Source: Streptantibioticus rubrisoli (lineage in GTDB: Bacteria > Actinomycetota > Actinomycetes > Streptomycetales > Streptomycetaceae). From it: a stretch of DNA of 64,000 nt. The notes under the pieces are model-generated. The model made no database searches, was not told the origin of the DNA, and saw only the letters and a program-made list of their open reading frames with translations. Below, in pieces: positions 29,868 to 64,000 of the stretch. The position numbers were made by a program, and so were the translations under genes. Within the stretch, counting starts at the first letter, position 1, and each line of letters opens with the position of its first letter. Location of the stretch: NCBI RefSeq assembly GCF_024436055.1, contig NZ_JANFNH010000038.1, positions 1-64,000 of the forward strand. Direction: 5' to 3'.

Positions 29868-30704
29868 TCAGCCCCGGGCGGCCCGCCCGGCGCGCACCAC
29901 CGCCGTACCGGCCGCCAGGACCACCAGCAGCAGCCCGGCCGCGGCGAAGCCCATGTCCCGCCCGAGGCCGAGACCGGCCTTGGTGCCGGAGACCGGAAGG
30001 ACCCCTTCCGAAGGGTCGTAGACCACCAGGACCGGCCGTGCGTCGGAGCCGCCGAGGTCCGCGCAGGTGTGGTCGTCGGTGAGCAGTTCCCTGACCTGGC
30101 CGTCCGGCAGCCGCACGTAGCAGGTGGGCGACGACGCGGCGCCCCCGGCGTGCGTCCAGGTCTGGCTGTACGCGGTCGCCGTGGCCTGCCGGCCCCAGAC
30201 ATAGAGGTAGGCGCGCGGGCCGCCGTACACCACGCCGAGCAGCAGCACCGGCAGCCCGGCCCAGGCGAGGGCCACGGCGGTCCTCCGGCCGGGCGCGTCC
30301 GGCATGCCGCGCACCACAAACACCCCGTGCACCATCAGCAGCACGAGCACCACGGCAAGGGTGGTCGCCCGGCTGCCCGACAGCGTCATCGGCCAGCACA
30401 GCGCCCCGGCCGCCAGGTCGAACAGCAGCACGAGCGTCCAGCGCCGCACCACCCGGCGGATCAGCGGCGTGCTGTCGGCGGGGCGCGGCAGCCGGTCCGG
30501 CGGCCAGGTGGTGCGCACCATCCGCTGAGGGTCGTCGGTGGTGAACTCCGCGACGATGGCGTGCACCCGGTCGTCGCCGTCCTCGCCCTTGGCCATCTCC
30601 CGCAGCCGGGGCAGACCGAACCCGGCGCGCCGCAGTGCCCGGATGGCCTTGACGTTCAGCGCCTCCAGCAGTTCATCAGCGGAGTAACGCTTCTTCTCGC
30701 TCAC
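29868..30704 (-). CDS. membrane protein of unknown function
   Basis: A 278-residue protein. The GTG at 30704 is used because GGGAG lies 8 bases upstream; an ATG eight codons earlier (30728) is the alternative. The cytoplasmic N-terminus ([34 protein letters not shown]) is helical and charged; about four membrane helices follow, with a ~90-residue extracytoplasmic loop between the third and last that holds two Cys ([15 protein letters not shown]). Between mqnA and mqnC on the same strand, so possibly part of the same transcript. No recognised family. Confidence 0.65.
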
Positions 30705-30873
30705 CGGCCACGCTCCCGCCTCGCCCATGTCGGTTACCGCGTACGTTCCACGGCACCAGTCTGGCAACCCGTCAGCATCCAGCGCGGCGGGCTCGGTTAC
30801 GCCGTGCGGGTCCCGCGCCGCCGACGAGGCGGCGGCGCGCGACCGCGACGGCACGGCCCGCCGGTGTGCGGCG

Positions 30874-31809
<936 letters not shown>

Positions 31810-37960: not shown

Positions 37961-38731
37961 TCAGTCCCCGGCGTCCGCCGAGGCACCGCTGTCTCCCACC
38001 CGGCGCCCGCCACCACCCTCAATGGGGATGTGCTTCGCACCGCTGTCTCCCTGCCCGCCGCCCAGCTCGCCCGTCCACCTGCGGTAGAGCTTGTGCGGTA
38101 CGCCGACCGCGTCCAGCGCCCGCCCGGCCACGAAGTCCACCAGGTCCTGGGCGCTGACGGCACCCGCGTAGAAGGCGGGCGAGGCGGGCAGCACCACGGC
38201 GCCAGCCTCGTCGAGGGCGACCAGTTGCCTGAGCGTCGGACCGCTGAGCGGGGTCTCGCGCACCACGACCACCAACGGCCGCCGTTCCTTGAGCGTCACG
38301 CTCGCCGCCCGCTGCAACAGGTCCTTCGACAGCCCGAGCGCCACCCCCGCCACGCAGGCCGTGCTGGCCGGAACGATCAGCATGCCCTTCGCCGGGTACG
38401 AGCCGGAGGACGGCCCGGCCGCCAGGTCGCCCGCGGGCCAGCAGCGCACCGCGCCCAGGTCGACGTCGTAGGCGTCCGGCGTGCCGTCGGCGCCGCGTGC
38501 CAGCAGCCGGGCGAGGTCCTCGCGCCAGTGCGCGTCCCGGAACGGGTGACCGGTCTCGTCCAGCACCGTGAGCCGGGCGGCCCGGCTGACCACCAGGTCG
38601 ACGGCCTCCCCGGCGTGCAGCAGCGCCCGGACGACGGCTGCCGCGAACGGGGTGCCGGACGCCCCTGAGACGCCGACCACCCAGGGACGTCGCCGGTCGC
38701 CCGGTATCGATGAGGTGTGTCGCGGCTCCAC
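37961..38731 (-). CDS. UbiX-family flavin prenyltransferase
   Basis: A 256-residue protein. GVSGASGTPFAAAVVRAL (about 20-37) is the FMN-binding loop, PASTACVAGVALGLSKDLLQRAA and LVVVVRETPLS are UbiX signatures. UbiX enzymes make prenyl-FMN for UbiD decarboxylases, and a UbiD homologue lies 1.8 kb away, so it probably supports late menaquinone decarboxylation (sometimes called mqnM). The last ~35 residues (GGGQGDSG ...) are a low-complexity tail. GTG start. Confidence 0.88.
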   Translation of the reverse strand: MEPRHTSSIPGDRRRPWVVGVSGASGTPFAAAVVRALLHAGEAVDLVVSRAARLTVLDETGHPFRDAHWREDLARLLARGADGTPDAYDVDLGAVRCWPAGDLAAGPSSGSYPAKGMLIVPASTACVAGVALGLSKDLLQRAASVTLKERRPLVVVVRETPLSGPTLRQLVALDEAGAVVLPASPAFYAGAVSAQDLVDFVAGRALDAVGVPHKLYRRWTGELGGGQGDSGAKHIPIEGGGGRRVGDSGASADAGD

Positions 38732-38845
38732 ACCGCGAGCCTATCCGGCCGACGGGCCGCGATCGGCCCGGATGCCCGCAGAACCCCCACCCCCGGAACC
38801 GGGGCGGTTGTCAGACCCGTTGTCTACCGTGGAAGCACATCTCCC

Positions 38846-38868
38846 GACCGGGGACGGAGTCCCCGGTC
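38846..38868. promoter_or_regulatory. perfect hairpin in the rhomboid gene leader
   Basis: GACCGGGGAC (38846-38855) and GTCCCCGGTC (38859-38868) form a 10-bp stem with a GGA loop, flanked by outer CTCCC/GGGAG arms. It lies 77 bases before the rhomboid ATG and just after a possible -10 (TACCGT, 38825-38830). Confidence 0.5.
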
Positions 38869-38944
38869 GCGGCCCGGGAGCACACGGAACCGGGCCGGGG
38901 CGCAGGAGATGACGGGGCTGCGGGGGGACCAAGGGGGCGGCGAG

Positions 38945-39565
38945 ATGGTGACGTATACGAAGGCGGTGCGCCCGCGGGGCGGCGGGTTGACGAACGTCGT
39001 CGCGGCGGGCGCGCTCATGGCGGGCTGGGTGGCGCTGCTGTGGGTGCTGGAGGCCGTGGACGCGGTGTCGCACGGCGCGCTGGACCACTTCGGGATCGTG
39101 CCCCGGCAGGCCCGCGGTCTTGTCGACATCATCCCGGCGGCGTTCGTGCACTTCGGCTTCGGGCACGTGGCGGCGAACAGCCTGCCGCTGCTGGTCCTCG
39201 GCTTCCTCGCCGCGCTGCGCGGCATAGGCCGGTTCCTCGCAATATCCCTGCTGATCATCGTCGTCAGCGGGCTGGGCGTGTGGCTGGTGGCACCGTCCGG
39301 CACCAATACGGCGGGGGCGTCCGGCCTGATCTTCGGGCTGTTCGCGTATCTGGTGGTGCGCGGGTTCGTGGACCGGCGGCCGCTGGACATCGCGCTGGGC
39401 GTGGTGGTGGCGGTGCTCTACGGCTCGATCCTGTGGGGCGTGCTGCCGAACGCGGCCGGGATGTCCTGGCAGGGGCATCTGTTCGGGCTGGTGGGCGGTG
39501 TGGTCGCGGCGTTCCTGTTCCGGGAGCGCCGGTCCGGCGAGCTCATACCGTCCGCCCGAATCTGA
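38945..39565 (+). CDS. rhomboid-family intramembrane serine protease
   Basis: A 206-residue six-helix membrane protein. The catalytic Ser126 sits in GASG and His178 in WQGH; the supporting His74 and Asn78 (HVAANS) are also present, so the active site looks complete. Rhomboids cut single-pass membrane proteins. Start ATG 38945 follows GGGGGCGGCGAG. It converges on the UbiA-type gene with 7 bases between stops. Substrate unknown. Confidence 0.9.
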   Translation: MVTYTKAVRPRGGGLTNVVAAGALMAGWVALLWVLEAVDAVSHGALDHFGIVPRQARGLVDIIPAAFVHFGFGHVAANSLPLLVLGFLAALRGIGRFLAISLLIIVVSGLGVWLVAPSGTNTAGASGLIFGLFAYLVVRGFVDRRPLDIALGVVVAVLYGSILWGVLPNAAGMSWQGHLFGLVGGVVAAFLFRERRSGELIPSARI

Positions 39566-39572
39566 CGGTGCG

Positions 39573-40496
39573 TCAGGCGGCGAGCCCGCGGGTCAGCAGG
39601 TCGAGCAGCGCGCAGAAGAACAGCGCGATGCCGATGAACCCGTTGACCGTGAAGAACGCCCGGTTCAGCCTGGACAGGTCGCCCGGCTTGACGATCGAGT
39701 GCTCGTAGCAGAACGCGACGGCGACGATCAGCAGGCCGATCCACCAGAACGTCCCGGCACCGGAGGCGGCCCCGTACCAGGCGAGCAGGGCCGTGGTCAC
39801 CACATGGCAGACCCGGGCGCCGTACAGCGCGGCCGCGATGCCGAACCGGGCCGGTACCGACTTCACACCGTGCGCCCGGTCGGCCGCCACGTCCTGGCAG
39901 CCGAAGATCAGGTCGAAGCCGCCGATCCACACGCCCACCGCGAGCCCCAGGATCACCGCGTCCCAGGACCACCTGCCGGTCACCGCGAGCCATGCGCCGA
40001 TCGGGCCGATCGCCTGGGCGAGACCGAGGATGGCGTGCGGGAAGTTGGTGAACCGCTTCCCGTACGGATAGACCACCATCGGCACCACGGCCAGCGGCGC
40101 CAGGTACAGGCACAGCGTGTTCAGCGACGCGGCGGCGCCCAGGAAGACCACCAGGGCGATCAGCGCGCCGGTCCACGCCGAGCGCACCGAGACCACGCCG
40201 GTGACCAGTTCCCGGCCCGCGGTGCGCGGATTGCGGGCGTCGATCTCCCGGTCGATGATCCGGTTGCAGGCCATCGCGAAGGTACGCAGCCCCACCATGG
40301 CGGCGGTCACCAGGAACAGCTGCCACCAGTGGATGGAGGCGGTCCGCGCCTGCATGGCGGTGAGCGCGGCGATGTAGGCGAACGGCAGGGCGAAGACCGA
40401 GTGCTCGATCATCACCAGCCGCAGGAACGCCTTGACCTTGCCGGGCGGCGCGGGCTCCGGTCCGAACAGATCCGGGGCCGCCGACTCAACGCTCAC
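39573..40496 (-). CDS. mqnP: UbiA-type polyprenyltransferase of the futalosine pathway
   Basis: A 307-residue membrane enzyme with about eight helices. The first Asp-rich motif is N78xxxD82xxxD86 (NRIIDREID), the second DVAADRAHGVKSVPARFG. It attaches the polyprenyl chain to the dihydroxynaphthoate ring. The GTG start overlaps the UbiD stop (GTGA) with GGAAGGAG upstream, showing coupling. mqnP is assigned from family plus position between UbiD- and UbiX-type genes. Confidence 0.9.
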   Translation of the reverse strand: MSVESAAPDLFGPEPAPPGKVKAFLRLVMIEHSVFALPFAYIAALTAMQARTASIHWWQLFLVTAAMVGLRTFAMACNRIIDREIDARNPRTAGRELVTGVVSVRSAWTGALIALVVFLGAAASLNTLCLYLAPLAVVPMVVYPYGKRFTNFPHAILGLAQAIGPIGAWLAVTGRWSWDAVILGLAVGVWIGGFDLIFGCQDVAADRAHGVKSVPARFGIAAALYGARVCHVVTTALLAWYGAASGAGTFWWIGLLIVAVAFCYEHSIVKPGDLSRLNRAFFTVNGFIGIALFFCALLDLLTRGLAA

Positions 40497-41950
40497 AGCC
40501 CGTACTCCTTCCATCGCCGGGTCACCCGCGCCGCGGTCTCCGGGTCGGAGACGACCATCTCCGGCCAGCCACCGTCGCGGGTGTAGCCCTCCTCGGGCAG
40601 CTTCCGGGTCGCGTCGATGCCCGCCTTGCCGCCCCAGAACTGCTGGTAGGAGGCGTGGTCAAGGTGGTCGACGGGACCTTCGACCACGGTCAGGTCGCGG
40701 CTGTAGTCGGTGTTGCCGAACGCCCGCCAGGCGACCTCGTGGTAGTCGTGCACATCGCAGTCCGAGTCGACCACGATGATCAGCTTGGTGAGCGACATCA
40801 TGTGCGCTCCCCAGATGGCGTGCATCACCTTCTGCGCGTGCTTGGGGTACTTCTTGTCGATCGAGACGATCGCGCAGTTGTGGAAGCCGCCCGCCTCGGG
40901 CAGGTCGTAGTCGACGATGTCCGGGACGATGACCTTCAGCAGCGGCAGGAAGAAACGTTCGGTGGCCTTGCCCAGTGGACCGTCCTCGGTCGGCGGGCGG
41001 CCCACCACGATCGACTGCAGCAGCGGTCGCCGACGCATCGTCACACAGTCGATGGTCAGCGCCGGGAACGGCTCCTGCGGGGTGTAGAAGCCGGTGTGGT
41101 CGCCGAACGGCCCCTCGGGCAGCGTCCTTCCGGGCTCCAGCCAGCCCTCCAGCACCACCTCGGCGGCGGCCGGGACCTGGAGCGGGACCGTCTTGCAGTC
41201 CACCATCTCCACCCGCTTGCCCTGGACGAACCCGGCGAAGAGGTACTCGTCGATGTCACCGGGCAGCGGCGCGGTGGCCGCGTACGTCACCGCGGGCGGA
41301 CAGCCGAACGCGATGGCCACCGGCAGTCGTTCGCCGCGCCGCTGGGCGACCTGGTAGTGGTTGCGGCTGTCCTTGTGGATCTGCCAGTGCATGCCGATGG
41401 TCCGCGCGTCATGCCGCTGCAACCGGTACAGGCCCAGGTTGCGCACCCCGGTCTCCGGGTCCTTGGTGTGGGTGAGACCCAGGTTGAAGAACGAGCCGCC
41501 GTCCTGCGGCCAGGTGAACAGCGCGGGCAGCCGTTCCAGGTCCACCTGGTCGCCGGTGAGCACGACCTCCTGCACCGGCGCGTCGCCCGGCTTGACCTTC
41601 CTCGGCGGTACGTGCGTCATCCCGGCGAGCTTGCCGAACGCCTCGCGCACACCGGTGAAGCCGTGCGGCAGTTCGGGCTTGAGCAGGCCCGCGATCTTCT
41701 CGCTGATGTCGTCGTACGACTTCAGCCCGAGCGCCTTGAGCAGTCGGCGGTCGGTGCCGTAGACGTTCATCGCCAACGGCATGGCGCAGCCGCGCACGTT
41801 CTCGAACAGCAGGGCCGGGCCGCCCGCCTTGTTCACCCGATCGACGATCTCGCCGACCTCCAGATGGGGGTCCACCTCGACCTTGACGCGCTTGAGGTCA
41901 CCGTCCCGCTCCAGCGCCCGCAGGAACGAGCGGAGATCGTCGTAAGCCAT
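40493..41950 (-). CDS. UbiD-family decarboxylase of menaquinone synthesis
   Basis: A 485-residue prenyl-FMN-dependent decarboxylase. NLGLYRLQRHDARTIGMHWQIHKDS and EGPFGDHTGFYTPQEPFP hold the conserved Arg/Glu residues of UbiD. It most likely removes the carboxylate from the prenylated naphthoate (sometimes called mqnL), using cofactor from the UbiX-type protein. The ATG at 41950 gives the usual MAYDDLRSFLRALE start; the longer open frame upstream is not supported. Confidence 0.9.
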   Translation of the reverse strand: MAYDDLRSFLRALERDGDLKRVKVEVDPHLEVGEIVDRVNKAGGPALLFENVRGCAMPLAMNVYGTDRRLLKALGLKSYDDISEKIAGLLKPELPHGFTGVREAFGKLAGMTHVPPRKVKPGDAPVQEVVLTGDQVDLERLPALFTWPQDGGSFFNLGLTHTKDPETGVRNLGLYRLQRHDARTIGMHWQIHKDSRNHYQVAQRRGERLPVAIAFGCPPAVTYAATAPLPGDIDEYLFAGFVQGKRVEMVDCKTVPLQVPAAAEVVLEGWLEPGRTLPEGPFGDHTGFYTPQEPFPALTIDCVTMRRRPLLQSIVVGRPPTEDGPLGKATERFFLPLLKVIVPDIVDYDLPEAGGFHNCAIVSIDKKYPKHAQKVMHAIWGAHMMSLTKLIIVVDSDCDVHDYHEVAWRAFGNTDYSRDLTVVEGPVDHLDHASYQQFWGGKAGIDATRKLPEEGYTRDGGWPEMVVSDPETAARVTRRWKEYGL

Positions 41951-42127
41951 GCGTTCCAGTATCCGCCATGGGGTCCGGCCGCTTGCCGCCGGGCGCACGG
42001 CACGGCGTTCAGCGCGCTGATCGGCACGTGCGCCATGGACGGCGCGAGGGCGGCCCGCGAGGTCTACCCTTGATCCGTCACTGGGCCGTCCGCGGCCCAT
42101 CGCCGTACTCAGGGGGACCGCGTCGGC

Positions 42128-42556
42128 ATGATCAGGTATCTGCCCGTCCTGCTGCTGCTCGCGCTGTGGATCTTCGCGTTCGTCGACTGCCTGAACACAC
42201 CGGAGCAGCAGGTGCGCAACCTGCCCAAGGTGGTGTGGGTGCTCATCATCCTGCTGTTCGGGGAGGTGCTGATCGGGCCGATCGCCTGGCTGGCCGCCGG
42301 GCGCCCGCGCGCGGGGCTGCGACACGGTGGCCCGATGGCGGACGGCGCGGGCTTCGGTACGGCTGCCGCCGAGGAGGCGCACTGGGTCGCGCCGGACGAC
42401 AACCCCGAGTTCCTGCGCTCGTTGAGCCTGGCGAACAAGCGGGACGAGGCCATGCTCAAGGAGTGGGAGGCCGACCTGCGCCGCCGCGAGGAGGAGCTGC
42501 GCCGCAAGCAGAACGGCGGCTCCGGACCTGACGACGCCTCACCCGCCGCTCCCTGA
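42128..42556 (+). CDS. small membrane protein with phospholipase D nuclease N-terminal (PLDc_N) domain
   Basis: A 142-residue protein. Two membrane helices (about 3-20 and 34-56) with WIFAFVDCL and PKVVWVLIILLFGEVLIGPIAWL match the PLDc_N domain. The cytoplasmic C-terminus ends in a coiled, Glu/Arg-rich stretch (DEAMLKEWEADLRRREEELRRKQ). Divergent from the UbiD-type gene. Role unknown, possibly a membrane anchor. Confidence 0.82.
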   Translation: MIRYLPVLLLLALWIFAFVDCLNTPEQQVRNLPKVVWVLIILLFGEVLIGPIAWLAAGRPRAGLRHGGPMADGAGFGTAAAEEAHWVAPDDNPEFLRSLSLANKRDEAMLKEWEADLRRREEELRRKQNGGSGPDDASPAAP

Positions 42557-52492: not shown

Positions 52493-52921
52493 GTGACCTA
52501 CAAGTATTTCGGCGCGCCCGACGGCGCCACGGCGGCCCGGGTGCCGATCTCGATGCGCCCCGAGGAACTCGGTGGCGATGAGCTCGGCAATGGCATGTTC
52601 ACCAAGGTCAAGCCGGAAACGATGGCGGCGATGGTGCTCACCGGCATCGAGGGCATACCCCTGGCCAAGGTGCCGCCGCTGGAACTCGTGGTTCTTCACC
52701 CCGATTACGCCGTGGTGAAACTTCCCGTCAATGTCGTCGAACCGCTCCGCAAGGCTGGCGAGGAACAACTGGGCGCCGCCGCCTTCATCTGGTCCACCGT
52801 CCCCGACCGCCGCGGCCCCCGCGACGCGTTCGTGATCTACCAAATGCTCCACGAATGGCAGGACTTCGCCCAACGCTGCCACGAGACGGGGCATCAGATG
52901 TACTGCCTGGTGTGGCCGTAA
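52493..52921 (+). CDS. conserved small protein of unknown function
   Basis: A 142-residue soluble protein. GTG 52493 gives a start VTYKYFGAPDGATAARVPISMRPEELGGDELGN, which looks like a conserved N-terminus; the frame is open for ~290 bases upstream with Arg/Gly-rich translation unlike the rest, so longer starts are doubted. The end EWQDFAQRCHETGHQMYCLVWP has two Cys and two His. I do not recognise the family. Divergent from hemL. Confidence 0.6.
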   Translation: MTYKYFGAPDGATAARVPISMRPEELGGDELGNGMFTKVKPETMAAMVLTGIEGIPLAKVPPLELVVLHPDYAVVKLPVNVVEPLRKAGEEQLGAAAFIWSTVPDRRGPRDAFVIYQMLHEWQDFAQRCHETGHQMYCLVWP

Positions 52922-52923
52922 CT

Positions 52924-52952
52924 CCCCCGCCCGCCTCCTGCCGGGGCGGGGG
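52924..52952 (+). terminator. hairpin after the 142-residue protein gene
   Basis: CCCCCGCCC (52924-52932) pairs with GGGCGGGGG (52944-52952), starting three bases after the stop. Confidence 0.65.
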
Positions 52953-52985
52953 CGGTTGTCAGTGGGGTCTGCCACCATTCGGGCC

Positions 52986-53552
52986 ATGGACATCAACACG
53001 TTGCTGCGACAACTGGCCGACGAGTACAAGCCGTACTCTGGCCTGTCTCCCAAGGAGTTCCTGCGCGCCGGCGATCTCGCCGTCGCCGGGAGCGTGATCT
53101 TCAGTGAGCCCGACCCGGCGGAGTGGTCGATGTGCGACGGGGTACCGCACGGCAGATGGCCGGTGTACGTGGGCGTGTCGGAAAGTGGACACGTCACCTT
53201 GGCCGCGTTGCTGCTGGCGGAGCCCGAAGTCATCGCGGAGGCGGAGTTCGAGGACGCCTACGAGGACCACCAGCCGCTCAGCGAGGACATCGGACTGCTG
53301 TGGGACGAGACCGCCATGCACTCGCTGCGGTTCGGCGGGCCGCGGTCGGCCGACTTCCCCGATCTCGACGCCTTCGTGAAGCACGCCGAGGCCGCACTGG
53401 CCGCCGCGCCGGTGCCCTGGGTGGAGATACCCGCGAACCCGGAGACCGGATCCAACGTGCTGGCCTTCCCAGTCTGCGCGGACAGCGCGAACTGCTGGGC
53501 GGGGCGGGACGCGGACGGCAAGTTGGTCTGCGTGCTGTGCGTCAGCGACTGA
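52986..53552 (+). CDS. acidic protein of unknown function
   Basis: A 188-residue acidic soluble protein from ATG 52986 (an ATG-less 10-codon extension is open upstream but unsupported). It has YVGVSESGHVTLAALLLAEPEVIAEAEFEDAY in the middle and four Cys near the C-terminus (FPVCADSANCW ... LVCVLCVSD), which could bind a metal. No family recognised with certainty. It is read rightward and converges on the HTH gene 6 bases away. Confidence 0.6.
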   Translation: MDINTLLRQLADEYKPYSGLSPKEFLRAGDLAVAGSVIFSEPDPAEWSMCDGVPHGRWPVYVGVSESGHVTLAALLLAEPEVIAEAEFEDAYEDHQPLSEDIGLLWDETAMHSLRFGGPRSADFPDLDAFVKHAEAALAAAPVPWVEIPANPETGSNVLAFPVCADSANCWAGRDADGKLVCVLCVSD

Positions 53553-53558
53553 GCCGTC

Positions 53559-54301
53559 TCACGGCCCGCCCGTGTGGCAGGCGCCGTGGTAGCGCTGGAT
53601 CCAGTTGCCCTGCCCGATCCAGCCCTGGGCCGTCTTCATCATGCCGTTGACGACGACCGGTGGTTCCGGGGCGTAGAACACCTCGCTGGGTGAGTAGCGG
53701 GCGATGATGCTGTCGCGGTGCGGCGTGTCGAAGACCCGGACGTCGTTGTTGTTGCCGTCGGTCACCACGTACTTCCACGGGCAGAAAGTGCTGGTGGCCG
53801 CCGGGCTCGGCGCCACGCTGACCGGGCCGGGCGGCGGCTTCGCCGTGCCGGTACCGGAGTTGGAGGCCGCGGTGAGCGTGGCGCCCAGCGCGAAGCCGAC
53901 GAGCAGCCCGACCGCCAGCCACATCCAGCCGCTGCGCCCCGGCGCCGAGGGCCGCCAGCGCCGACCCGCGGCCGGTCCTGGGCACCGGCCGCCGGGTCCG
54001 GCTCGGGACCGGCGGACGCGTCCGTGTCGAACGCCGTACCGCTCTTCTCCGCCATCGCGGCGGCCCACAACTCCCGTACCGACTCCGGGTCTGCGCCCAG
54101 CGCGGCGCAGATCTTCTCCACCGTCGGCCAGGCGGGTACCGCCTTCCCGCGGAAGTAGCGCGACAGGGTGGAGTCGCTGATCGAGATGTCCCGTTCCACG
54201 GCCCGTAGCGTGCGCCCCGACAACTGGTGCATGCCGCGCAGCGCCTGGCCCAGTGCCTGGCGCGCCTGATGGTCCGACGGGTCCGTCCGCGGCTGCTTCA
54301 T
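53559..54301 (-). pseudogene. HTH-TM-SH3-like protein gene split by a frameshift
   Basis: Two minus-strand frames together make one protein. Frame A from ATG 54301 encodes an XRE-like HTH (LRGMHQLSGRTLRAVERDISISDSTLSRYFRGKAVP) and an acidic linker to about DTDASAGPEPDPAAG. It then becomes Arg/Pro/Gly-rich nonsense to 53762. Frame B, shifted by -1, continues from about 53985 with GRRWRPSAPGRSGW, one membrane helix (MWLAVGLLVGFALGATLTAA) and an extracytoplasmic SH3-like domain ending HGACHTGGP at 53559. The switch lies around 53960-54010. Real frameshift mutation, sequencing error in GC-rich DNA, or programmed shift cannot be told apart here. Confidence 0.65.
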
Positions 54302-54531
54302 GGCTGTCCCATGGTGTGCTTCACCTTGTCCCGCCTGGATGTCCCCGCAGCTCACGAACCTAGTTCGTGTCGAAAAATCCCGTCAACGCCGTACCGGGTT
54401 GCCTCACCGTTCCTCCACCCGGAACCCTCATTAACGCGGCGTACGGCCGCTGCCCTCGCGCGGCCCGTCGTCGTCTTCGCCCGCGGGGGAGCCGAAGACG
54501 ACGGCGGGACCGTCACGGGGGGCGGTACGTC

Positions 54532-54930
54532 TCAAACCCGCAGTCCCGGCAACACCTCGTCGGTCAGCAGCCGCAGTTGACGCTCGGCGTCCAACGAGCC
54601 GATCCGCGGCACCAGTTGGCGCGCACCCGCCTCGGTGTACGCACGCAGCCAGCACAGGCAGTCATCCGGCGAGCCACCGTAGAACGGCTGAAACATGCGC
54701 ATTTCGTCCAGCCCGCGGTCGTAGTACGCGCGGGTATACGCCTCCAACTCCCCCCGCGCACCAGCCGGATCGGCGTTCAGGTTGACCGTGGCGCAGAAGG
54801 CCGGGGTGATGCTGCCGGGCGCCCGGCCCGCGGCGACGGCCAGTTCGCCGATCCGCCGCCAGGCGAGCTGGGCACCGGCGGCGCACCGCCGAATCAGTCG
54901 GGCATAGGTATGTCGATCACGGCGTTACGC
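54532..54930 (-). pseudogene. C-terminal fragment of a luciferase-like flavin monooxygenase
   Basis: One minus-strand frame is open from a stop near 54930 to TGA at 54532 and has no usable ATG or GTG. Its translation (LAVAAGRAPGSITPAFCATV, then LEAYTRAYYDRG and FQPFYGGSPDDCLCWLRAYT) resembles the C-terminal ~130 residues of LLM-class F420/FMN monooxygenases, which are normally about 300 residues. The barrel's N-terminal half is missing. Probably a 5'-truncated relic. Confidence 0.55.
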
Positions 54931-56764: not shown

Positions 56765-57958
56765 TCAGCCCTTCACGCAGATGATCTGCTTGAGCTTGGC
56801 GACGACCTCCACCAGGTCCCGCTGCTGGTCGATGACCTGCTCGATCGGCTTGTAGGCGGCCGGGATCTCGTCGACCACGCCGGAGTCCTTGCGGCACTCC
56901 ACGCCCCGGGTCTGCTCCTCCAGGTCCCGTGTGGAGAAGCGCTTCTTCGCCGCGTTGCGGCTCATCCGCCGACCGGCGCCGTGGGAGGCCGAGTTGAAGG
57001 ACGCCTCGTTGCCCAGTCCGCGCACGATGTAGGAACCGGTGCCCATGGAGCCGGGGATGATGCCGTAGTCGCCGCCGCCCGCCCTGATCGCGCCCTTGCG
57101 GGTGACCAGCAGGTCCACGCCCTCGTAGCGCTCCTCGCTGACGTAGTTGTGGTGGCAGGAGATCACCTCGTCGAAGGTCACGTTGGCCTTCTTGAACTCC
57201 TTGCGGATCACGTCCTGCGACAGCGCCATCATGATCGCGCGGTTGTGCTTCGCGTACTCCTGGGCCCAGAACAGATCGCGCCGGTAGGCGGCCATCTGCG
57301 GGGTGTCCGCGATGAACACCGCGAGGTCGCGGTCGATCAGGCCCTGGTTGTGCGGCAGCTTCTGGGCCTCGCCGATGTGGTACTCGGCCAGCTCCTTGCC
57401 GATGTTCCGGGACCCGGAGTGCAGCATGATCCACACCGCGCCGTCGGTGTCCAGGCACAGCTCCCAGAAGTGGTTGCCGGACCCGAGCGTCCCCATCTGC
57501 TTGCCCGCCCGCTCCTCGCGGAACCGGACCGCCTCCGCCAGCCGCCCGAACCCGGACCAGAACCCGTCCCAGTCCGCCGTGCGGAACCCGTGCAGCCGGG
57601 CCGGGTTCACCGGCTCGTCGTGCATGCCGCGGCCCACCGGAATGGCCTGCTCGATCTTGGAGCGCAACCGGGAGAGGTCACCGGGCAGATCGTTGGCGGT
57701 CAGCGAGGTGCGCACCGCGCTCATCCCGCAGCCGATGTCCACTCCGACCGCGGCCGGGCAGACGGCGCCCTGCATGGCGATGACCGAACCGACGGTCGCG
57801 CCCTTTCCGTAGTGCACGTCCGGCATCACGGCCAGGCCCTTGATCCACGGCAGCGTGGTGACGTTGCGCAGCTGCCGCATCGCCACGTCCTCGACACCGG
57901 CCGGATCGGTCCACATGCGGATCGGCACCCGGACGCCGGGCACCTCGGTGTACGTCAT
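56765..57958 (-). CDS. rtcB: RNA-splicing ligase RtcB
   Basis: A 397-residue RNA ligase that joins 2',3'-cyclic phosphate or 3'-phosphate ends to 5'-OH ends using GTP and Mn. Metal-binding Cys in GVDIGCGMSAV (near residue 77), GSGNHFWE, HSGSRNIG and the guanylylated His in SHGAGRRMSR are all present. ATG 57958 gives the usual start MTYTEVPGVRVPIRMW; the longer frame begins within a Ser/Glu-rich segment. No rtcA, rtcR or archease gene is adjacent. Confidence 0.94.
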   Translation of the reverse strand: MTYTEVPGVRVPIRMWTDPAGVEDVAMRQLRNVTTLPWIKGLAVMPDVHYGKGATVGSVIAMQGAVCPAAVGVDIGCGMSAVRTSLTANDLPGDLSRLRSKIEQAIPVGRGMHDEPVNPARLHGFRTADWDGFWSGFGRLAEAVRFREERAGKQMGTLGSGNHFWELCLDTDGAVWIMLHSGSRNIGKELAEYHIGEAQKLPHNQGLIDRDLAVFIADTPQMAAYRRDLFWAQEYAKHNRAIMMALSQDVIRKEFKKANVTFDEVISCHHNYVSEERYEGVDLLVTRKGAIRAGGGDYGIIPGSMGTGSYIVRGLGNEASFNSASHGAGRRMSRNAAKKRFSTRDLEEQTRGVECRKDSGVVDEIPAAYKPIEQVIDQQRDLVEVVAKLKQIICVKG

Positions 57959-58178
57959 CTCTCCCCCTGGGTTGGACTCACTGCTCTCGGTGTTCGACTC
58001 ACCGACTGACATCAACGAAAAAACAGGCAAACCTAGCGCTTCTTAGTCGAAACAAGATTTGAGGGCGAAACGACCCAATCAACACCCGCGACCGGCGGCG
58101 CTGGCGATCTCTGCGGTAGACATTGTGTTCACGGGCCGCCCCGCAGCGGCAACGCGTTTTCGAAAGGGGGCCAGGCCA

Positions 58179-63260: not shown

Positions 63261-63443
63261 TGTCTGTGCTTCCTTCCGGTTGATCCGCGTCAATCCACAT
63301 CAATCCAGGGGTGCGGGGCCTTGGCGGCTACATGTCCCCACTCGATTGTCCCATCCCCGAAGGAGAGCCCTTCGCCATGGCGGCCATGGGATACTCGGAA
63401 CGATTCGAACCGTGTCACCCATACAAGGAACGGCATCCATCCC

Positions 63444-64000
63444 ATGGCTTCGGTCCCATCCCTCTCCGCCACGATCCAGCAGCGCGTCTCCGCGGCCCTG
63501 GCCGCCGCGGTGCCGTCGGCCGCCGACGCCGATCCGCTGCTGCGACGTAGCGACCGGGCGGACTTCCAGGCCAACGGGGTGCTGGGCCTGGCCAAGCGGA
63601 ACAAGGCCAACCCGCGCGAGCTGGCCGCCCAGGTCGTCGAGCACCTGCCCGCCGACGACGTGCTGGCCGGGATCGAGGTGTCGGGCCCCGGCTTCCTGAA
63701 CCTGACCGTCACCGACACGGCGATCATCAACACGCTCGCCGCCCGCGCCGCCGACGACCGGCTCGGCGTGCCGTACACCGAGCGGCCCGGCCGTACCGTG
63801 ATCGACTACTCGCAGCCCAACGTGGCCAAGGAGATGCACGTCGGCCATCTGCGCTCGACGGTGATCGGCGACGCCCTCGTGCGGATCCTGGAGTTCTCGG
63901 GCGAGACGGTGATCCGGCGCCACCACATCGGCGACTGGGGCACCCAGTTCGGCATGCTCATCCAGTACCTGATCGAGCACCCGCACGAGCTGGACCACCC
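63444..64000 (+). CDS. argS: arginyl-tRNA synthetase, 5' part
   Basis: The first 185 residues of arginyl-tRNA synthetase. The N-terminal tRNA-binding Add-1 domain (about 1-110, with [14 protein letters not shown] and [12 protein letters not shown]) is followed by [31 protein letters not shown], holding the HVGH signature, and [14 protein letters not shown]. Continues beyond the window. Start ATG 63444 is supported by homology; AAGGAA lies a little far (about 14 bases) upstream. Confidence 0.94.

Follow-up and report, generated by a model that had tools for sequence, protein, structure and literature searches.

A split gene on the minus strand of a 64,000-nucleotide stretch of the Streptantibioticus rubrisoli genome (the window) is, in the reading that we favor on balance, a freshly broken one-component, membrane-tethered regulator whose intact relatives probably bind a wall or sugar ligand and act on their own promoter. 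In the ancestral protein, a flexible linker would have connected a cytoplasmic HTH_31 domain to one transmembrane (TM) helix, followed outside the cell by a small two-cysteine domain, and a frame-changing length difference in the linker would now separate the HTH from the TM helix and the outside domain. In intact relatives, the outside domain would be the part that probably binds the wall or sugar ligand, and the HTH would act on the promoter of its own gene. Topology, ligand, DNA binding, and self-regulation are all inferred here; for outside sensing joined to DNA binding, as proposed in the initial annotation, the swapped outside domains of the relatives and their conserved promoter element provide indirect support. 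The split gene itself is ordinary, and its relatives are the more useful subject.

A gene divided between two frames

The HTH_31 domain and the segment comprising the TM helix and the two-cysteine domain lie in minus-strand frames that are one base apart, with the following parts.

53979 to 54301, minus strand: N part, from ATG 54301 to the linker, holding HTH_31 (translation, Pfam, and codon usage)
54068 to 54256, minus strand: HTH_31 (XRE-type) domain (Pfam; the model of the sister HTH matches XRE regulators)
53931 to 54040, minus strand: low-complexity linker with the frame change (likeliest switch at 53949-53975)
53874 to 53930, minus strand: TM helix GWMWLAVGLLVGFALGATL in the C frame (hydropathy 1.76; coordinates counted from the ORF)
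53562 to 53786, minus strand: small outside domain bounded by two cysteines, in the C frame (fold unconfirmed)

The frame that opens at ATG 54301 encodes HTH_31 at residues 16-78 (50.2 bits against a Pfam cut-off of 27), and the TM segment and two-cysteine domain occupy the frame of ORF 53559-54068, at offset 2, or -1 relative to the HTH frame. By a crude hydropathy scan, the mean hydropathy of the TM segment is 1.76, and that of its counterpart in the sister genome described below is 1.82. The C frame is free of stops from 54301 to 53561; because the DNA is GC-rich, open frames are weak evidence, and the case therefore rests on codon usage and homology. In a codon-usage likelihood comparison, a single switch from the N to the C frame outscored the N frame alone by 137 log units and the C frame alone by 81, with the best switch point at 53959 and those within 2 log units of it at 53949-53975. 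Pfam, hydropathy, and codon usage thus confirm the assignment of the HTH to one frame and of the TM segment and following domain to the -1 frame that had been made from the letters alone. The junction that had been placed at 53960-54010 holds in part, in that it overlaps the interval 53949-53975, with the best point falling at its low edge. A second frameshift was considered and rejected: the linker of the window favors a third frame at about 53980-53921, and the intact sister suffers the same loss of frame, its true frame also losing in scanning windows that start at codons 96-111, plus one at codon 71. Since the intact sister shows a weak frame signal there too, the third-frame signal is attributed to composition. 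As sequenced, the window copy would yield a soluble, unanchored HTH that ends in an out-of-frame tail.

The sister species Streptomyces sp. RPT161 (G001) carries the gene at the same place, with 89% DNA identity over 850 alignment columns, and here the HTH, TM helix, and outside domain form one 246-aa ORF that begins at the conserved ATG. This bears out the original proposal of a single protein with both parts. The outside domain itself is rare, being found in three of 394 family genomes (E 0.001), namely those of the window and the sister and a third genome (G009), and only one of these three carriers, the sister, has an intact gene. Among 391 sampled genomes of the order, strong matches were confined to the window and the sister; six weak matches in the same sample (E 0.003-0.01) were set aside, as their frames look unrelated on reading. 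In G009, contig C7 encodes the HTH, the TM helix, and about half of the outside domain in one frame, and contig C34 holds a separate outside-domain fragment that looks like a remnant, because its first half is missing and a stop lies inside the aligned stretch. The gene is therefore damaged in G009 as well, and its loss recurs within a small set of carriers. The fused form, sought among relatives, is thus present in full in the sister and through half of the outside domain in C7; neither encodes the parts as separate genes, and the C34 fragment is the nearest approach to such an arrangement. The fused sister ORF, G009, and the single-frame relatives described below together indicate that the one-protein form is probably ancestral. 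In G009, the HTH-TM-half-domain frame (L046:3237-4370, minus strand) continues in-frame into a tail that, on reading, resembles an alpha/beta-hydrolase and has no Pfam match, and this locus is possibly a rearranged fusion.

Causes of the break

The break, seen only in the window, reflects either recent mutation or an error of assembly. A recent loss-of-function mutation would be the more likely of the two, given that the gene is also damaged in G009. Sequencing or assembly error, in which case the living strain would have an intact fused gene and make the regulator, is the lesser but still serious possibility. The assembly is a draft (7.26 Mb, 103 contigs, completeness 100, contamination 2), codon usage keeps its signal on either side of the switch, and both halves of the gene look to be under purifying selection, with dN/dS (NG86) between window and sister of 0.29 for the N part and 0.28 for the outside domain (0.79 for the TM segment plus stalk). 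However, the only run of at least four equal bases at 53930-54040 is GGGG from 53940, which lies outside the best switch interval, and damage to the gene in G009 also speaks against an error. So does a comparison of neighboring genes: among 53 sister ORFs that were queried, 35 had a match of at least 70% identity in the window, and one of the 35, this gene, was split, indicating that errors of this kind are not frequent in the assembly.

In the reverse comparison, 52 window ORFs were queried, 30 had a match of at least 70% identity in the sister, and three were flagged: this gene, ORF 40493-42382, and the tail of ORF 63290-63778. ORF 40493-42382 was rejected as a split gene because its Pfam UbiD matches begin only at residue 155, meaning that its 5' end is over-extended. 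The tail of ORF 63290-63778 (minus strand) matches the sister in another frame, possibly through a small frameshift or a shifted gene end. Counting indels at the DNA level gave more net shifts, at 29868-30953, 37961-38731, 38717-39565, and 56765-58030, and none of these four regions was flagged by the ORF-level split count.

It is quite improbable that the gene has been newly split, with the second half translated alone from ATG 53924, so that a membrane protein and a soluble HTH would be made separately. This ATG is in-frame at the start of the TM helix, where the aligned sister codon is TTG, but the 20 bases before it have no clear ribosome site, the first frame continues beyond it to a stop at 53764, and no relative uses this start. 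A programmed -1 frameshift, whereby one mRNA would yield a soluble HTH and, by slippage, a membrane-bound form, can be dismissed almost entirely: codon bias and constraint are kept in both halves and no stop interrupts the C frame in the overlap, but the sister and contig C7 of G009 need no shift, no in-phase X_XXY_YYZ heptamer occurs anywhere in the gene, and the RNA fold at the junction is ordinary among pseudoknot-free structures (z -0.69, with 45 of 200 shuffles folding as well). Of the three causes that the initial annotation had allowed for, mutation and error thus both stand and the programmed shift drops out.

Relatives and domains of the intact protein

When the HTH-linker-TM part was used as the query, 52 of 345 family genomes matched at E 1e-10, and 30 loci were listed, comprising the sister, the window, and 28 others (L098-L125, where L098 is that of G009). 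At 14 of these 28 loci (among the matches listed and by a crude TM scan), HTH_31, a TM helix, and an outside domain follow one another in one frame, and 11 of these loci have a ricin-type lectin outside, scoring above Pfam cut-offs (L099-L101, L104-L110, and L113). The outside domains of L102 and L103 have no Pfam match, and that of L125 is SLT-like, below the cut-off. The remaining 13 of the 28 loci showed no TM segment by the same crude test (11 are long multi-domain frames and two are short). The genome of the window itself has 64 HTH_31 matches, 61 of them above the cut-off, and a TM segment lies behind the HTH in three of the 30 HTH_31 loci that were examined there (1500 bases on each side), such that the HTH_31-TM layout appears to be uncommon in this genome.

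Among the matches listed, the HTH_31-TM-ricin lectin proteins of Streptomycetaceae are the closest HTH relatives outside of the genus of the window and G009. They have the same order of parts and a related promoter layout, but they carry a lectin instead of the small two-cysteine domain and have a full GGGAC-N6-GTCCCGGGAC element that is absent in the window. A literature search returned no paper on HTH-TM-ricin or HTH-TM-SH3 proteins among the matches listed. We tentatively suggest, at a little less than even confidence, that these genes form a modular Streptomycetaceae family of membrane-tethered XRE-type self-regulators, with interchangeable outside domains (ricin lectin, SLT-like, or small and cysteine-bearing) on an HTH_31-linker-TM chassis, each acting mainly on its own gene by way of a private operator, GGGAC-N6-GTCCCGGGAC, close to the transcription start, and that the window lineage exchanged its outside domain, saw its operator drift, and now has a gene that is breaking. 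The varied outside domains on one chassis would then be a natural series for what Streptomyces senses outside the cell.

In a model of the sister protein, the HTH is of fair quality (pLDDT about 72-84 over residues 11-80), and its best structural match is the XRE regulator 2ofy (Z 12.7, rmsd 2.2, 81 aligned residues). ClgR (3f52) and BldD (2ewt) share the HTH fold (Z 12.2 and 9.9), and ClgR is also a weak sequence match (E 0.0079); neither of these regulators is known to have a TM segment or an outside domain. RodZ has the layout of an HTH, a TM segment, and an outside domain, which is the same order as in the intact protein, raising the question of whether that protein might be RodZ-like instead of a transcription factor, its HTH being the module with which a wall or cytoskeleton protein binds other proteins. 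The fold matches of the sister HTH model include RodZ (2wus_R; Z 10.0, rmsd 2.9, 80 aligned residues), and the lectin and SLT-like outside domains of relatives would suit wall binding. However, the XRE regulators 2ofy, 5woq, and 3f52 outscore it (Z 12.2-12.7), Pfam assigns HTH_31, HTH_3, HTH_26, and HTH_19 to the domain and not HTH_25, which we take to be the RodZ-type HTH, and in the genomes searched the promoter element of the relatives has no copy away from these genes except one in G189. RodZ therefore differs in its Pfam HTH, a cytoskeletal role for the intact protein is not supported here, and we regard a RodZ-like protein as unlikely.

The label 'SH3-like' that had been given to the outside domain is unconfirmed: the domain had no Pfam match at E 10, no NCBIfam match, and no credible fold match. 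A profile search for relatives in the PDB returned none (best E 0.19). A model of the domain alone (mean pLDDT 69.6) is mostly beta with one helix; it had no Foldseek match below E 2.4, and the best structural Z, 3.8, was to an entry other than SH3. A profile comparison with the outside domain of L102 and L103 gave a probability of 1.4.

Promoter elements and place among known regulators

The lectin-type genes share an upstream stretch of about 76 bases that aligns gap-free (17 regions aligned), in the layout TTGCTT, eighteen bases, TA...T, then GACCTGCTGGGAC-N6-GTCCCGGGAC. Mean pairwise identity of this promoter stretch is 80% (55 pairs from 11 genes), a value that is somewhat inflated because 13 of the 76 columns are the anchor. 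By comparison, the HTH coding sequence of the same pairs is 58% identical at third codon positions and 82% identical over the first two positions together; this set omits L103, L110, and L125, which are near-duplicates or diverged. With at most one mismatch, GGGAC-N6-GTCCCGGGAC was found just upstream of the gene in all 10 searched genomes that carry a lectin-type or L102-type gene and in none of the 30 genomes without a detected gene, and matches with two or three mismatches were mostly as numerous as those of a control pattern. This distribution fits an operator through which the HTH would control its own gene, although the element may instead be the site of another factor or a leader retained through descent. 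G189 carries the promoter stretch twice; the second copy (L135:1500-1620) lies 18 kb from the first, with no recognized HTH gene behind it and a small secreted-looking ORF nearby at 1761-2156.

The upstream region of the gene in the window contains the following features.

54357 to 54386, minus strand: putative promoter (TTGACG, an 18-base spacer, TAGGTT) that lines up with those of lectin-type relatives
54345-54341, 54332-54328, and 54310-54306, minus strand: three GGGAC boxes, diverged counterpart of the GGGAC-N6-GTCCCGGGAC of the relatives
54353 to 54369, minus strand: palindrome CACGAAC-TAG-GTTCGTG over the putative -10, with one exact match each in the window's own genome and the sister genome, both at this place

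The window, the sister, and G009 each retain the TTG and TA register and the three GGGAC boxes, the last of which (54310-54306) may be the ribosome site. A scan for consensus promoters did not report the putative promoter of the window. The full element is absent from all three carriers, and the best matches elsewhere in their genomes have two or three mismatches. Compared with the lectin group, promoter identity is 0.38 for the window, 0.40 for the sister, and 0.44 for G009, against a shuffle mean of 0.26 and a best of 500 shuffles of 0.40, 0.38, and 0.39, respectively; the resemblance of the window promoter, taken alone, is thus not beyond all shuffles. The palindrome is, from its letters, a candidate operator. 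An inverted repeat as long as this one arises in 9% of simple shuffles, no counterpart was found upstream of 15 relatives other than the sister, and copies with one mismatch occur in G009 (between genes read as atpH and atpA), in the sister, and in G002.

Transmembrane transcription regulators (TTRs) are single polypeptides that have both a TM region and a DNA-binding domain, and about 56% of them are single-pass according to the paper that describes them (PMC10269533). By its layout, and by analogy, the intact protein would work like a TTR: the sister also joins a DNA-binding domain and a single TM segment in one polypeptide. Both parts are present in the window (HTH_31 at 50.2 bits, with XRE fold matches for the sister model and predicted DNA binding, and a TM region), but as sequenced they do not form the single polypeptide that the sister has, and the window copy is therefore filed as a broken relative of TTRs and not as a member. 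It differs from them in being broken and in having an outside domain without a Pfam family; a term search of the main text found no mention of HTH_31, XRE, SH3, or Actinobacteria. A tethered regulator whose one likely target lies next to its own gene would allow the question of how a membrane-bound factor reaches its operator to be tested on a single promoter.

Two further observations concern the DNA on either side of the gene. Downstream, about 630 bases (52921-53550, plus strand) hold a 198-aa ORF (52956-53552) that has no Pfam match at E 0.001, and the sister has only some 50 bases at this position. Upstream, in the stretch 54532-54886 (minus strand), ORF 54532-54747, which has no Pfam match, reads like the end of a luciferase-like monooxygenase and is possibly a remnant.
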